64,000 nucleotides of DNA from Hyphococcus sp. GTDB taxonomy: Bacteria; Pseudomonadota; Alphaproteobacteria; Caulobacterales; Parvularculaceae. The stretch is from assembly GCA_028284345.1 (NCBI GenBank), contig JANQRY010000003.1, forward strand, positions 372,001-436,000. The letters run 5' to 3'. Positions within the stretch are counted from its first letter, which is position 1; every line of letters starts with the position of its first letter. Made by a program: the position numbers and the translations under genes. Under the pieces are notes generated by a model, which was not told the DNA's origin, did not search any database, and was given only the letters and a program-made list of their open reading frames with translations. Positions 5,157 to 45,395 of this stretch are shown here, in pieces.

Positions 5157-8100
5157 TTAAACCAGTTCGACATCGGCGACGCCCTCAACCCCTTTGAGGG
5201 CCCCGCGCATGGCCGGGGTGCAGGCGGCCGGCTCCGGCAGGGTGATTTCGACGTCCCGCCCCTTTTCGCCGACCCGCATGGCGATAATGACGTCGCCCCG
5301 CTCGCGCGCGCTCGCCGGTTTGACGGCGGCGAGGCGCCGGCGCACCCCCTCAAGGGCCCGCTCGGACGTGATCGAAATCCGCAGCTGCGAAACGGCGGCG
5401 GCGGCGGCGAGATCGAGGCTCTTGATCCCGTTGCACGTAAATCGGATGTCGCCATCCCCATCGCGGTCCTCCGCGGCGACGTCGGCGAGGATCAGGGTTC
5501 CCGCTTCAAGAAGGTCATCGGCCGCTTTGAGCACCTCCTGAAAGATGGTGATTTCATATTCGCCCGCAGCATCGGAAAGCTCGACCCAGGCGAACGGCTT
5601 GCCGGTTTTCGACCGGCGCCGGCGCACGGCGCGAATGACGCCCGCCATCTTGAAGGCGTAGCCGCCGGCTTTCGCTCGCTCGACGGCGTCCGCGTAATTG
5701 GTCACGCGCATGCGCGCGAGCTCGCGCTCATAATCGTCAAGGGGATGGCCGGAGAAATAAAACCCGATCGCGGCGCGTTCATCGTCAAGACGGGCGAGCG
5801 CCGTTTCGTCTTCAACGGCTGGCAATCGCGGTTTATCGAGCGCCGGCGCCGCATCGAGGGCGAAAAGCGCACCCTGGTCGCTGGTGCGTTCTTCGGCCGC
5901 CTGCGCCGAATAGCGGATCATGAGATCGGCCGCGGCAAAGGCCTGGCCCCGCGATGCGCACAGCCCGTCAAGGGCGCCAGCGCGGGCCAGATTTTCGAGC
6001 GCGCGCTTGCCCACGGATTTCAGATCGACCCGCTCGGCGAAATCAAAAACATCCGCAAACGGTCCGTTGGCGGCGCGCTCATCGGCGATCAGCGTCATCG
6101 CCGCCTCGCCCACATTCTTCACCGCCGAAAGCGCATAAACGACGGCGCCGTCCTCGACCGTAAAGTCGCTTGCGGAAATGTTGACATGGGGCGCCTTTAC
6201 CTCAACGCCCGCCCGGCGGGCTTCTTTGAGGAAAATCGCGAGCTTGTCCGTATTGGCGCGATCGAGCGACATGGACGCGGCCAGAAACTCCGCCGGATAA
6301 TTGGCTTTGAGCCAGGCCGTTTGATAGGCGATCAGGGCGTAGGCGGCGGCGTGGGATTTGTTGAACCCGTAGCCGGCGAATTTCTGGACAAGGTCGAAGA
6401 TCGACGACGCTTTCTTTTTGTCGACGCCCTTTTCCGCCGCGCCCTCAACGAAGCGGGCGCGCTGCTTGTCCATCTCCGCTTTCTTCTTCTTGCCCATGGC
6501 GCGGCGCAGGAGATCGGCCTCGCCCAGGGAATAGCCGGAGAGGATCTGGGCGATCTGCATCACCTGTTCCTGATAGATGATGACGCCGTAGGTCTCTTTC
6601 AGCACGTCTTCGAGGAGCGGATGCAGATAGTCCGGGTCCTGATCGCCCTGCTTGCGCTCAATATAGGTCGGGATGTTCTCCATAGGCCCCGGCCGGTAGA
6701 GCGAGACAAGGGCGATAATGTCTTCCAGCGTATCGGGCTTCATGGAGCGCAGGACCGCGCGCATGCCGGCGCTTTCAAGCTGGAAGACGCCGGTCGCCGC
6801 GCCCTCGCCCAGCATGTCGTAGGTCGGCCGGTCGTCGAGGGGGAGCGCGGCCATATCGACCTCGACGCCGCGCCGTTTGATCAGCGCCACGGCCCGGTCG
6901 ATAACGGTGAGCGTTTTCAGGCCGAGAAAATCGAATTTGACGAGCCCCGCGGGCTCGACCCATTTCATGTTGAACTGGGTCGCCGGCATGTCGGAGCGCG
7001 GATCGCGGTAAAGCGGCACCAGCTCGTCAAGGGGCCGGTCGCCGATGACGACGCCCGCCGCATGGGTTGAGGCGTGGCGATAAAGCCCTTCAAGACGCAA
7101 CGCTTTTTCGATGAGCGCCGCCACGGCGCTGTCGCTGTCGCGCTGTTCCTTAAGGCGCGGCTCGCTTTCGAGCGCCTCAGCCAGCGTGACCGGATTGGCC
7201 GGGTTGTTGGGCACCAGCTTGCAGATGCGGTCGACCTGCATAAAGGGCATGTTGAGGACGCGGCCCACATCGCGAAGAACGGCCCGGGCCTGCAGCTTGC
7301 CGAAGGTGATGATCTGCGCCACGCGGTCGCGGCCGTAGCGCTCCTGCACGTACCGGATCACCTCGTCGCGCCGGTCCTGACAGAAATCGATATCGAAGTC
7401 GGGCATCGAGACCCGTTCGGGATTGAGAAACCGCTCGAACAGCAAACCGAAGCGCAACGGATCGAGATCGGTGATGGTGAGCGCCCAGGCGACGACCGAG
7501 CCGGCGCCGGATCCGCGCCCCGGCCCCACCGGAATGCCCTCTCCCTTCGTCCATTTGATGAAGTCGGAAACGATCAGGAAGTAGCCGGGAAAGCCCATGC
7601 CGTTGATGATGTCGAGTTCGACCTTGAGGCGCGACCAGTAGTCTTCTTCCGGCGCGGCAAGGTCGATATCGGCGAGCCGGGCCTTGAGGCCCTCCCGCGC
7701 CTGGCGCTCCAATTCCGCCCGCTCGGCCTCGACCGCTTCCGCGCCGTCGGCGCCGGTAAAACTCGGCAGGATCGGATCATGAAAGCGCGGCCGGTAGGCG
7801 CAGCGGCGGGCGATCTCCACCGTGTTTTCAATCGCTTCGGGCAGATCTGCGAACAGCGCCGTCATTTCCGCCGCGCTCTTGAAATAATGATCGGGCGTCG
7901 CCTTGCGGCGGTCGTCCTGATGCACGTAAGCGCCCTCGGCGATGCAGAGCAGCGCGTCATGGGCCTCATAATCTTCCGGGGACGGAAAGAATGGCTCGTT
8001 CGTCGCGACGATGGGCAATTCCAGATCATAGGCGAGATCGAGAAGCCCGCCTTCGACGCTTTCCCCGGCGCGCGCCGGATGACGCTGTAGTTCCACATAA

Positions 8101-8612
8101 AGCCGGTCCGGAAACAGCGCGTTCAATCGTTCGAGCGTTTTGCGCGCTTCCGCGTCGCGCCCCTTGCGCAGGAGAGCGTCGAGCGGGCCGTCATAGCCGC
8201 CGGTGAGACAGATGAGCCCGTCAGTCGCGCCGTCGAGATTCGACAGCGACGCGCAAACGCTGTCCTCGGCGGCGGAGGCGAGAAAGGCGGCGCTGGTCAG
8301 CTTCAGGAGGTTGCGATAGCCGGCCTCATTCTGGGCGAGGAGGACGAGCGACGGATGGCGCTCGCCGCGACTAAGGGGCAAGTCGAAATCGCCGCCGGCG
8401 AAGGCCTGATGAATGCCGATGATCGGCTGCACGCCGGCGCCGGCGAGGCTCGTTGAGACCTCCAGCGCGCCATAAAGATTGTTGGTGTCGGTGACGGCCA
8501 CCGCCGGCATCCCGGCCCGCCGGCACAGCGCACCGAGCTTTTCAACCCGGATCGCGCCCTCGGAAAGGGAATAGGCCGAATGAAGATGGAGGTGGATAAA
8601 TTGCGCGGCCAT
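5157..8612 (-). CDS. dnaE: DNA polymerase III alpha subunit (replicative polymerase)
   Basis: Catalytic subunit of the chromosomal replicase. The 1151 aa run in DnaE1 order: PHP domain at the N-terminus (FIHLHLHSAYSLSEG, residues 6-20), palm with the catalytic acidic motif PDFDIDFCQ at about residues 403-411, fingers with SAGMRAVLRSMKPD and LYRPGPM, a helix-hairpin-helix region with GYGFNKSHAAAYA, and a C-terminal OB fold (GVIRAVRRRRSKTGKPFAWVEL). Length and architecture fit the essential DnaE1 rather than error-prone DnaE2/ImuC. It lies 29 bp downstream of a 31-codon LexA-controlled peptide gene on the same strand, so part of its transcription may be SOS-inducible. Confidence 0.98.
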   Translation of the reverse strand: MAAQFIHLHLHSAYSLSEGAIRVEKLGALCRRAGMPAVAVTDTNNLYGALEVSTSLAGAGVQPIIGIHQAFAGGDFDLPLSRGERHPSLVLLAQNEAGYRNLLKLTSAAFLASAAEDSVCASLSNLDGATDGLICLTGGYDGPLDALLRKGRDAEARKTLERLNALFPDRLYVELQRHPARAGESVEGGLLDLAYDLELPIVATNEPFFPSPEDYEAHDALLCIAEGAYVHQDDRRKATPDHYFKSAAEMTALFADLPEAIENTVEIARRCAYRPRFHDPILPSFTGADGAEAVEAERAELERQAREGLKARLADIDLAAPEEDYWSRLKVELDIINGMGFPGYFLIVSDFIKWTKGEGIPVGPGRGSGAGSVVAWALTITDLDPLRFGLLFERFLNPERVSMPDFDIDFCQDRRDEVIRYVQERYGRDRVAQIITFGKLQARAVLRDVGRVLNMPFMQVDRICKLVPNNPANPVTLAEALESEPRLKEQRDSDSAVAALIEKALRLEGLYRHASTHAAGVVIGDRPLDELVPLYRDPRSDMPATQFNMKWVEPAGLVKFDFLGLKTLTVIDRAVALIKRRGVEVDMAALPLDDRPTYDMLGEGAATGVFQLESAGMRAVLRSMKPDTLEDIIALVSLYRPGPMENIPTYIERKQGDQDPDYLHPLLEDVLKETYGVIIYQEQVMQIAQILSGYSLGEADLLRRAMGKKKKAEMDKQRARFVEGAAEKGVDKKKASSIFDLVQKFAGYGFNKSHAAAYALIAYQTAWLKANYPAEFLAASMSLDRANTDKLAIFLKEARRAGVEVKAPHVNISASDFTVEDGAVVYALSAVKNVGEAAMTLIADERAANGPFADVFDFAERVDLKSVGKRALENLARAGALDGLCASRGQAFAAADLMIRYSAQAAEERTSDQGALFALDAAPALDKPRLPAVEDETALARLDDERAAIGFYFSGHPLDDYERELARMRVTNYADAVERAKAGGYAFKMAGVIRAVRRRRSKTGKPFAWVELSDAAGEYEITIFQEVLKAADDLLEAGTLILADVAAEDRDGDGDIRFTCNGIKSLDLAAAAAVSQLRISITSERALEGVRRRLAAVKPASARERGDVIIAMRVGEKGRDVEITLPEPAACTPAMRGALKGVEGVADVELV

Positions 8613-8641
8613 CGGCGCTCGCCTTCCCGAGAATGAACTTT

Positions 8642-8737
8642 CTACGCGCCGAGCAACATTCCCCAGAATTGCGCCGCGCCGATCACCGTCAGAAGTACGC
8701 CGAGTCCGACGACGTCACGCAAGGTTTCGTTTTCCAT
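8642..8737 (-). CDS. 31-aa single-pass membrane peptide, probable SidA-like SOS division inhibitor
   Basis: ATG to TAG, 31 codons. The peptide begins MENETLRDVV, followed by a continuous hydrophobic stretch (GLGVLLTVIGAAQFWGMLLG, residues 11-30), so it is one membrane helix with a short charged N-terminus. A GAGAGAA purine run lies 6-7 bp before the ATG. Its promoter has a GTTC-N7-GTTC LexA-type box across the -10. It is 29 bp upstream of dnaE on the same strand. In Caulobacter crescentus the SOS-induced 29-aa inner-membrane peptide SidA, which blocks division through FtsW, is as far as I recall encoded next to dnaE. Size, topology, regulation and location all match. Sequence homology was not tested, so the symbol is withheld. 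Confidence 0.72.
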   Translation of the reverse strand: MENETLRDVVGLGVLLTVIGAAQFWGMLLGA

Positions 8738-8767
8738 AAGGTTTCTCTCGTTTTGCTGCTGCGCTCT

Positions 8768-8782
8768 GTTCGTCTTTTGTTC
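8768..8782 (-). promoter_or_regulatory. LexA (SOS) box, GTTC-N7-GTTC type
   Basis: Perfect alphaproteobacterial-type direct repeat: GTTC at 8768-8771 and GTTC at 8779-8782 with seven bases between (GAAC-N7-GAAC on the transcribed strand). It overlaps the -10 hexamer and start region of the promoter for the 31-aa peptide, the usual geometry for LexA repression. A third GAAC lies 14 bp upstream on the minus strand. Confidence 0.85.
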
Positions 8783-8809
8783 TATATTCCCCTTTTGTTC
8801 TTTTGTCCA
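8781..8809 (-). promoter_or_regulatory. Promoter of the 31-aa peptide (and possibly dnaE)
   Basis: On the minus strand, TGGACA (8804-8809) and TATAGA (8781-8786) are separated by 17 bp. Transcription would start near 8774, inside the LexA box, giving a leader of about 36 nt. Just upstream is the imperfect palindrome at 8811-8831 (TAAATTCCGC/GCGGAAATTTA), a possible second operator or the end of the MAPEG transcript. Confidence 0.75.
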
Positions 8810-8886
8810 GTAAATTCCGCGCGGAAATTTATCGCCGCGGCGCTAAGCCGGCGTTCAGCAAGGTGCGAGACGGCGCGGGGTCGCGC

Positions 8887-9312
8887 TCAGGCGAGAAGCA
8901 GATAGAGCGCCCGGCCGGCGAGGGGGAACAGCAAGGCGGACGCGGCTAGAAAAATATAGAAGCGGATCATGACGACGTTTTTGGTCGCCTGCCAGATCGA
9001 ATGAACGATGCGCAAGGCGACGTAGCCCCAGGCGAGCCAGACGTCGATCATCGCCGCCTCACCGCTGATGGCGATCGCCAGGGCGACGGCGTAGAAGATC
9101 GTCGGCTGCTCCATCAGATGGTTGTAATTGTCCGCAACCTGACGGACTTCGCTGGGCAACGCGTTCATCGCTTCGCTACGCGTGTGAACCGCCTTTTGCG
9201 GATGCATCCGCGCCGCGCGCATGGCCGGAATGCGCGTCGCCAGCATCCAGACGGCCATTATGAGCGTCCACGCAACAAGCGCGGCGACGGGGAGCAGCAT
9301 GGCTTGGGTCAT
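8887..9312 (-). CDS. MAPEG-family membrane protein
   Basis: Four predicted membrane helices in 141 aa. The ENYNHLxExPxxFYA-like motif of the MAPEG family appears as ADNYNHLMEQPTIFYAVAL near residue 62. Family members include microsomal glutathione transferases and leukotriene synthases; the role of the bacterial ones is mostly unknown. I start at MTQAMLLPV because GGAGG lies 6 bp upstream of that ATG, rather than at an in-frame TTG five codons earlier. It is followed on the same strand, after a 149-bp gap, by the SOS peptide gene. Confidence 0.85.
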   Translation of the reverse strand: MTQAMLLPVAALVAWTLIMAVWMLATRIPAMRAARMHPQKAVHTRSEAMNALPSEVRQVADNYNHLMEQPTIFYAVALAIAISGEAAMIDVWLAWGYVALRIVHSIWQATKNVVMIRFYIFLAASALLFPLAGRALYLLLA

Positions 9313-9385
9313 CGGAGCCTCCGGCAAAGAAAGGCGGTTTTTTACCGCGCTTCGTCAGCGCGGCCCATAGCCTTCCGCAGCCGGT

Positions 9386-44241: not shown

Positions 44242-45395
44242 TACGCCGCCCCTCTGTGTTCTGATCGGGCCTTGATGCGGTCATAGGCCGCCGGCCATGT
44301 CTCGATGAAAGCGTCGGCGTCGGCGTCGGTCGAATTCCAGCCAATCGAAACGCGAATAGCTGTTGTCGCCTCTTCGTCGCTCGCGCCCATGGCGGCGAGC
44401 ACGTGGCTTGGTTTCGTCTTGCCGGAGGAACAGGCGCTCCCGGCGGAAATGGCGATTCCAGCGAGGTCCATGGTCATCAATTGCGTTTCGCCGGAAAATC
44501 CGGGGGCGGATAAACATAAGGTTCCGGGCAGGCGGTCTTCGCCCTTGCCCCATACCGTCGCGCCCGCCGCTTCCGCCGCCGCTTCCATGCGGTCGCGCAA
44601 GGCGGCGATGTCGCCCGTCCGGGCGAGGCTCTTTTCCGCAAGACGCGCGGCGACGCCGAGCCCCGCGACGCCGGCGACATTATGAGTGCCGGCGCGCCGG
44701 TTTTCCTCATGGCCGCCGCCGCGCATGACCGGCGCCAGCGGCAGGTTCGGCCCGGCGATCAGCGCGCCGACGCCGAGCGGCCCGCCGAATTTGTGGCCAG
44801 TGAGGATCATCAGATCGGCGCCGGACATGACGAAATTGACCGGGACCTTGCCGACCGCCTGGGCCGCATCGCAAACATAAAGCCCGCCCGCCTCATGGGT
44901 GATGTCGGCGATCTCGCGAACCGGTTGAAGGACGCCGGTCTCGTTATTGGCGAACATGACGCAAACGAGAAACCCGCCGTCGCGGGCCGTATCGTAGTCG
45001 GCGAGCCGGGTCTTCAACCAGTCGACGTCGACCAAGCCCGACGGCAGCGCCGGCATGATTTCGATTGCCGCGCCGGTCGCCTCCGCATTCGCCGACACCG
45101 CGGAATGCTCAATGGCGCTGACGAAGATGCGTTTGATGGCGTGCGGCTCCATCACGCCGTGGATCGCGTAGTGGATCGATTCCGTGCCGCCGCTCGTAAA
45201 GACGACGCCGCCGACGGGCGCGTTGACCAGCGCGCGCACGGCCGCGCGCGCATCCTCGACGGTTTTGCGCGCCCTGCGTCCTTCTTCGTGTACGGACAAT
45301 GCGTTGCCGTCGCGCGCCATCGCTTCAGCGACCGCCTCGATAACTTCCGGGCGCACGGGCGCGGTGGCGTTATGGTCGAGGTAATGGCGGCTCAC
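44241..45395 (-). CDS. Cysteine desulfurase, IscS/NifS-like (class V aminotransferase)
   Basis: PLP enzyme of group I. The 384 aa have [20 protein letters not shown] at the N-terminus, [16 protein letters not shown] near 70, [16 protein letters not shown] near 150, the PLP-lysine in [17 protein letters not shown] near 202, and the active Cys in [18 protein letters not shown] near 330. It overlaps the regulator gene by ATGA and sufB by one base. Alphaproteobacterial suf operons often carry this second desulfurase beside the regulator. Confidence 0.93.

Follow-up and report, generated by a model that had tools for sequence, protein, structure and literature searches.

A 31-residue peptide gene behind LexA-type boxes upstream of dnaE in Hyphococcus probably encodes a divergent positional orthologue of SidA

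According to the available part of one study (PMC4211646), the SOS division inhibitors SulA, YneA, DivS, ChiZ and SidA of different bacteria are unrelated to one another, and sulA is not widely conserved. In the same part, SidA of Caulobacter is presented as a 29-aa inner-membrane protein that is induced on LexA cleavage and acts through FtsW to block division. Its lethality is suppressed by certain changes in FtsW, F145L and A246T among them, and A246T leaves the binding intact (PMC4211646, same part). A model from 2026 places SidA against TM7 of FtsW, a placement that the authors, in the accessible portion of their text, call not of high confidence (PMC13396833). In the portions of the literature reached by our searches there was no published statement on the distribution of sidA outside Caulobacteraceae.

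In C. vibrioides the genes at this place (locus L242) come in the order lolD-like ORF, oppositely oriented nucleoside hydrolase-like ORF, 29-aa ORF and dnaE, where the first two labels are our own readings of the translations. The 29-aa ORF sits behind LexA-type boxes and matches the NCBIfam SidA model NF033228 with 72.4 bits, at a cut-off of 35. According to the accessible parts of two papers, sidA is CCNA_02004 and CCNA_02005 is an inosine-uridine nucleoside hydrolase (PMC10769358, PMC3667746); the nucleoside hydrolase-like neighbour is what would be expected for this pair. Because the ORF matches NF033228 and has this neighbour, we identify the slot beside dnaE as the sidA slot. The position of SidA beside dnaE had been given in the first-pass annotation, and it is borne out here.

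The window, that is the whole stretch of 64,000 nucleotides that was analysed, comes from a genome that belongs to the order of Caulobacter but to another family, below called f1. In the ORF reading of the window, an ORF of 31 codons runs from ATG to TAG at 8737..8642 on the minus strand (MENETLRDVVGLGVLLTVIGAAQFWGMLLGA), and its start is the first start codon past the preceding in-frame stop. The product is a peptide of 31 aa with a single hydrophobic helix, predicted by composition only, whose best 17-residue mean hydropathy is 1.93. Its N-terminus is acidic (MENE), and the ribosome site of the gene is weak (GAGAG). Directly downstream on the same strand, at 5157..8612, lies the main gene for DNA polymerase III alpha, dnaE (TIGR00594, 1200.6 bits); its ATG is at 8612, which leaves a gap of 29 bp from the stop of the peptide.

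Upstream, 30 bp before the ATG of the peptide, there is a perfect LexA-type box GAAC-N7-GAAC (GAACAAAAGACGAAC, 8768..8782, minus strand), which is GTTC-N7-GTTC on the other strand. We call it box 2. A second LexA-type box with one mismatch, box 1 (GAACAAAAGGGGAAT, 8786..8800, minus strand), lies 18 bp upstream of box 2. The likely -10 hexamer TATAGA (8781..8786, minus strand) overlaps box 2 by two bases, and the likely -35 hexamer TGGACA (8804..8809, minus strand) is 17 bp from the -10; both hexamers were read by eye, and a promoter consensus scan lists no promoter upstream of the peptide. In the same genome lexA has a box of the same type upstream (GAACAACCATAGAAC), and recA has a one-mismatch box before its likely start (GAACAAAACGCGTAC).

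The first-pass annotation had proposed a 31-codon gene for a membrane peptide with a ribosome site, a perfect GTTC-N7-GTTC box on the -10 and dnaE 29 bp downstream. The ORF with its one helix, the box and the distance to dnaE are exactly as it had them; the ribosome site exists, in the weak form given above. Box 1 is absent from that annotation.

Exact GTTC-N7-GTTC boxes occur 92 times in the genome (44 on one strand, 48 on the other), compared with 87 occurrences of the reversed control pattern, and a box alone is therefore weak evidence. The weight lies on the conservation of the box at this position: 23 of the 24 genus loci (the window included) have the perfect box, and at the remaining locus the contig ends 24 bp upstream of the gene. 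Further, we formulated a strict rule that asks for an exact box and, beginning no more than 125 nt after it, an ATG ORF of 22-48 aa that contains a hydrophobic 17-mer. When both strands of the window are scanned this rule fires once, at the peptide gene.

The peptide itself is also conserved in the genus. In a search of 60 genomes, its own included, a match at E 10 or better was found in 30. Among the 27 genomes of the same genus the peptide was found in 23, with best E values that are all below 1e-9, and four had no match. In one of these four (G018) dnaE lies at a contig end, so that the slot is missing from the assembly. At 23 of the 24 genus loci dnaE follows the peptide. The tandem-box arrangement is kept as well: all 22 genus loci that were scored agree at 15 of 16 half-site letters, and shuffles give about 9.4.

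The peptide gene is under purifying selection at the level of the protein. Over the 24 genus sequences (276 pairs) pN/pS is 0.284, and variable codon positions are most frequent at the third position (25/30), followed by the first (16/30) and the second (8/30). A chance ORF is ruled out by the conservation within the genus, the single firing of the box and ORF rule in the window and the pN/pS.

To see how far the slot reaches, the strict rule was applied to 180 loci upstream of dnaE. In eleven of them, among these the single locus from family f2, no DnaE motif could be recognised, and one more was too short, which leaves 168. On the strand of dnaE 62/168 upstream regions are positive and on the opposite strand 0/168; in 20 dinucleotide shuffles per region the rule gives 0.00 in each group. 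The positives are distributed as 15/20 in Caulobacteraceae, 8/16 in family f5, 21/24 in the other genera of f1, 0/3 in family f4 and 18/105 in other orders. One genome (G199) was entered twice, as L051 and L147, and contributes one duplicate to the class counts and to the class profile. At one locus from the other orders (L146) there is a GTTC-N7-GTTC box and a hydrophobic ORF upstream of dnaE that is unlike the SidA-like peptides; it passes the strict rule and was dropped from the family by judgement of its sequence.

A profile built from 67 members identifies 14 more among the other hydrophobic ORFs, all of them on the dnaE strand of the upstream regions. These 14 occupy the same slot and had failed the strict rule; they score at least 17.0 bits, and the next ORF scores 6.4. 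After this profile scan the peptide is found in 24/24 loci of f1, 18/20 of Caulobacteraceae and 15/16 of f5. A search for short ORFs upstream of dnaE across Alphaproteobacteria had been suggested as a check in the first-pass annotation, and similar peptides do occur there, across the order and in 11 sampled families of other orders (f7, f8, f13, f20, f38, f51, f71, f107, f109, f112 and f150). The 18-bp arrangement of two boxes, at a score of at least 13, is seen at 10/24 loci of the other f1 genera and 11/18 of Caulobacteraceae, and at none of the 15 loci of f5 or the 18 of other orders. In a named scan, where 35 of 37 loci were examined, the strict rule is positive at 23/26 Caulobacteraceae-like loci and at 0/9 loci of Dongia, Rhodospirillaceae R-7, Cypionkella, Pseudorhodobacter and a MAG.

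In some of the peptides the start was picked by hand; L049 starts with TTG and L173 with GTG. The first Met entered for L035/L172 is absent from the DNA, where the codon is GGG and an in-frame ATG lies further upstream. One row therefore carries one wrong letter in the comparison of shared residues (L035), in the set for the f1 profile (L172) and in the alignment A1 described next.

Profile A1 was made from 32 peptides and run over whole genomes at E 0.01. In the order it matches 146 of 249 genomes, the window's own included. For the linkage to dnaE the window's own hit was left out, which gives 146 hits (one genome has two), and the place of dnaE is listed for 135 of them. The hit is upstream of dnaE and on the same strand in 133 of the 135, and the distance from the peptide match to the DnaE match ranges from 13 to 361 bp. 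The two unlinked hits are that of G002 and the second hit of G049. Besides the window, 23 genomes of the order supplied rows to A1, all picked beside dnaE; when the row-supplying genomes are left out, 110/111 hits are still linked to dnaE by a hand count.

Among the order genomes, A1 has no hit in family f2. In family f4 there are four hits inside 551-aa frames, which are taken as false, and one weak short hit. Since neither of these families, both of the same order, shows a convincing peptide, the gene may have been lost or replaced there, or it may have diverged past the reach of the profile. In the class sample A1 matches 37/387 genomes. Outside the order there are 34 hits in this sample; the place of dnaE is listed for 24, of which 21 are linked, and six of the others, in frames of 380 aa or more, are probably false.

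A conserved slot and operator make it possible to follow the SidA kind through the order and, less certainly, into others. As far as our searches show, this reach of the slot is new, and so is the natural variation of FtsW beside it that is described below.

In one genome of the genus, G002, the peptide is separated from dnaE: it lies with its boxes on contig C33 (L029, G002:C33:20213-23302; also L158), and dnaE is on C4. Genome-wide searches find the peptide there in a single copy, on C33, flanked by a Flp pilin-like ORF and a KpsF-like (sugar-phosphate) isomerase ORF, both labelled by eye; for the stretch upstream of dnaE in G002 only ORFs of 60 aa or more were listed. The conserved unit is operator plus peptide.

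That this unit is kept in G002 speaks against the idea that the ORF is a leader, whose translation tunes the expression of dnaE while the peptide itself does little. The ORF and dnaE share a strand, are 29 bp apart and have no terminator-like site listed between them by the site scan, and they would indeed be co-transcribed. However, the placement in G002, the variable distance to DnaE and the conservation of the amino-acid sequence led us to reject a leader, which we regard as extremely improbable. A known RNA element was also considered for the locus and rejected, as an Rfam scan of 8300..9000 gave no match at E 1, and this too counts against a leader.

If the ORF is instead read as the gene of a SidA-like peptide, the relation to SidA has to be found in sequences that have diverged strongly. 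Against NCBIfam the window peptide matches no family at E 10 or E 1, a search in which HMMER filters may hide very weak matches. Since it fails the test of the NCBIfam SidA equivalog model (35-bit cut-off), it is not a member of that family. A search of the window genome with SidA of C. vibrioides gives no hit at E 10, and in the multiple alignment the two peptides are 10% identical. A match to Pfam VUPS was rejected (E 0.025, 14.6 bits at a cut-off of 27), and a PDB search with the peptide profile gave 0 matches at E 1.

The curated model NF033228 matches 6/32 members of profile A1, which holds six rows from Caulobacteraceae, three of them confirmed as matches. Relatives outside Caulobacteraceae are missed by the model, in line with the expectation of the first-pass annotation that orthologues go unrecognised outside Caulobacter.

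When profiles of f1 and Caulobacteraceae are tested on each other, they perform at chance against shuffled peptides (AUC 0.44 and 0.49), and against other hydrophobic ORFs the AUC is 0.75 and 0.50. A bridging profile, made from 17 peptides of other orders only (one a duplicate) and thus containing neither f1 nor Caulobacteraceae, recognises both groups. Against position-shuffled versions its AUC is 0.98 for f1 and 0.99 for Caulobacteraceae, and against the remaining hydrophobic ORFs from those regions, which at that stage still included the 14 members, it is 0.88 and 0.91. Residues conserved with SidA, which the first-pass annotation had named as support, are accordingly not detectable by direct comparison, and the link is made through the bridging profile only.

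The part common to the members is short. It consists of a polar pair ahead of the helix, for example Arg/Lys-Asp/Glu (69/76 peptides have a pair of this broad kind), of small residues in the first part of the helix and, in many cases, of a Trp further on. The difference in charge across the helix gives no clear orientation over the 76 peptides (26 N-plus, 19 C-plus, 31 ties). The resemblance to SidA had been proposed for size, topology and regulation; it holds for the size and for the LexA-type boxes, while the charges give no clear topology.

Side by side, the window peptide and SidA (NF033228, CCNA_02004) are alike in length (31 and 29 aa) and in their layout, a short N-terminus that carries a basic-acidic pair and then a single hydrophobic helix. 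Both genes have LexA-type boxes 18 bp apart and lie directly upstream of dnaE, at 29 bp in the window and in the same order in C. vibrioides (L242). They differ in that the window peptide has no match to the curated model, an identity of 10% and the acidic N-terminus MENE, and in that the FtsW residues of the host are different. The slot, the operator and the bridging profile are evidence of common descent, not proof of it. On these grounds the window peptide is probably a divergent positional orthologue of SidA and an SOS-induced division inhibitor. As a SidA-like peptide in the sidA slot, it very probably acts in the same way as SidA.

In its size, its one helix and its predicted SOS control the window peptide also resembles peptides of the TisB/DinQ type. 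These SOS toxins are under antisense RNA control and depolarise the membrane. For DinQ, the available part of one paper describes an SOS-regulated single-transmembrane toxic peptide (PMC3567139). An SOS-induced peptide of this kind would lower the energy of the cell or promote persistence rather than block division. All three shared features fit, but the slot, the operator and the bridging profile tie the window peptide to SidA, and we consider a depolarising peptide very unlikely.

Other small membrane inhibitors of division were compared too. YneA, SosA and ChiZ come from other phyla. Like the window peptide they are small membrane proteins; they are induced by damage, inhibit division and have been modelled on FtsW, but ChiZ has a LysM domain and SosA an extended helix needed for toxicity, according to the accessible portion of the modelling study (PMC13396833), and for these there is no room in 31 aa. 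DidA of Caulobacter is a small single-helix membrane inhibitor of late division as well. It has 71 aa, is independent of SOS and driven by DriD, and binds FtsN, as stated in the available part of PMC4211646, whereas the window gene encodes 31 aa behind a LexA-type operator. On length and regulation an identity with DidA was rejected.

The proposed target can be examined in FtsW, where 19 of 20 genomes were readable. FtsW of the window genome is identical to that of C. vibrioides at 168/385 aligned residues; its residue 145 is Met and its residue 246 is Thr. In the eight f1 genomes examined, position 145 is Met or Leu in 8/8 and position 246 is Thr in 3/8, compared with Phe and Ala in the four Caulobacteraceae and the four f5 genomes examined. 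The three readable genomes of f2 and f4, where no peptide was detected, have Leu at 145 and Ala at 246. These are positions at which, in Caulobacter, a change suppresses both SidA and DidA.

Mainly because FtsW of f1 differs at 145 and 246, we do not treat the FtsW mechanism as established for this peptide. There are two ways to account for the difference: the manner in which the f1 peptide acts with FtsW has changed, or it targets a different divisome protein. The latter would make it an SOS division inhibitor of FtsI, FtsN or FtsQLB, with the SidA of Caulobacteraceae specialised on FtsW later. The FtsW residues of f1 are in favour of this, as is the divergence of the peptide beyond direct recognition; further, DidA binds FtsN though changes in FtsW suppress DidA (PMC4211646, available part). 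On the other hand, few genomes were compared, and in Caulobacter A246T leaves the binding of SidA to FtsW intact (PMC4211646, available part); residue 246 therefore bears on the activity of the divisome and not on the contact. We think a target other than FtsW unlikely, if somewhat less so than a depolarising peptide.

The best explanation of the locus is probably a translated gene for a LexA-repressed, SidA-like inner-membrane peptide that would halt the late divisome after damage. LexA on the tandem operators of the promoter would keep the gene off. After DNA damage RecA would become active, LexA would be cleaved and the peptide made, presumably to insert in the inner membrane as one helix. 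There it may hold the late divisome inactive, most likely through FtsW or its partners FtsI and FtsN, and division would wait for repair. The SidA-type division inhibitor proposed in the first-pass annotation is thus supported as far as the sequence goes, by the slot, the LexA-type operator, the size and the bridging profile.

A wider reading has, in our estimate, about an even chance of being right: an SOS checkpoint peptide of old alphaproteobacterial origin would have been fixed at dnaE before several orders split, and SidA would be its branch in Caulobacteraceae, with the members outside that family missed by the curated model. Peptide and divisome target would then have changed together, giving lineages such as this one, whose FtsW differs at positions where a change suppresses SidA in Caulobacter. 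The orthologues, the natural FtsW variants and the families without a detected gene form a set in which one can test by what means a single-helix peptide brings the synthesis of the septal wall to a halt.

Two further observations concern the neighbourhood. The next ORF upstream of the peptide, at 8887..9327 on the minus strand, encodes 146 aa with several hydrophobic stretches, and we take it to resemble a MAPEG-type membrane protein. A second, weaker match to TIGR00594 is on another contig (467.8 bits, or 495.6 together with its neighbour in frame). Near the second DnaE-family gene (C6:40159-42840) there are two GTTC-N7-GTTC boxes, at G000:C6:44396-44410 and 45145-45159, which would presumably fit an imuA-imuB-dnaE2 operon.
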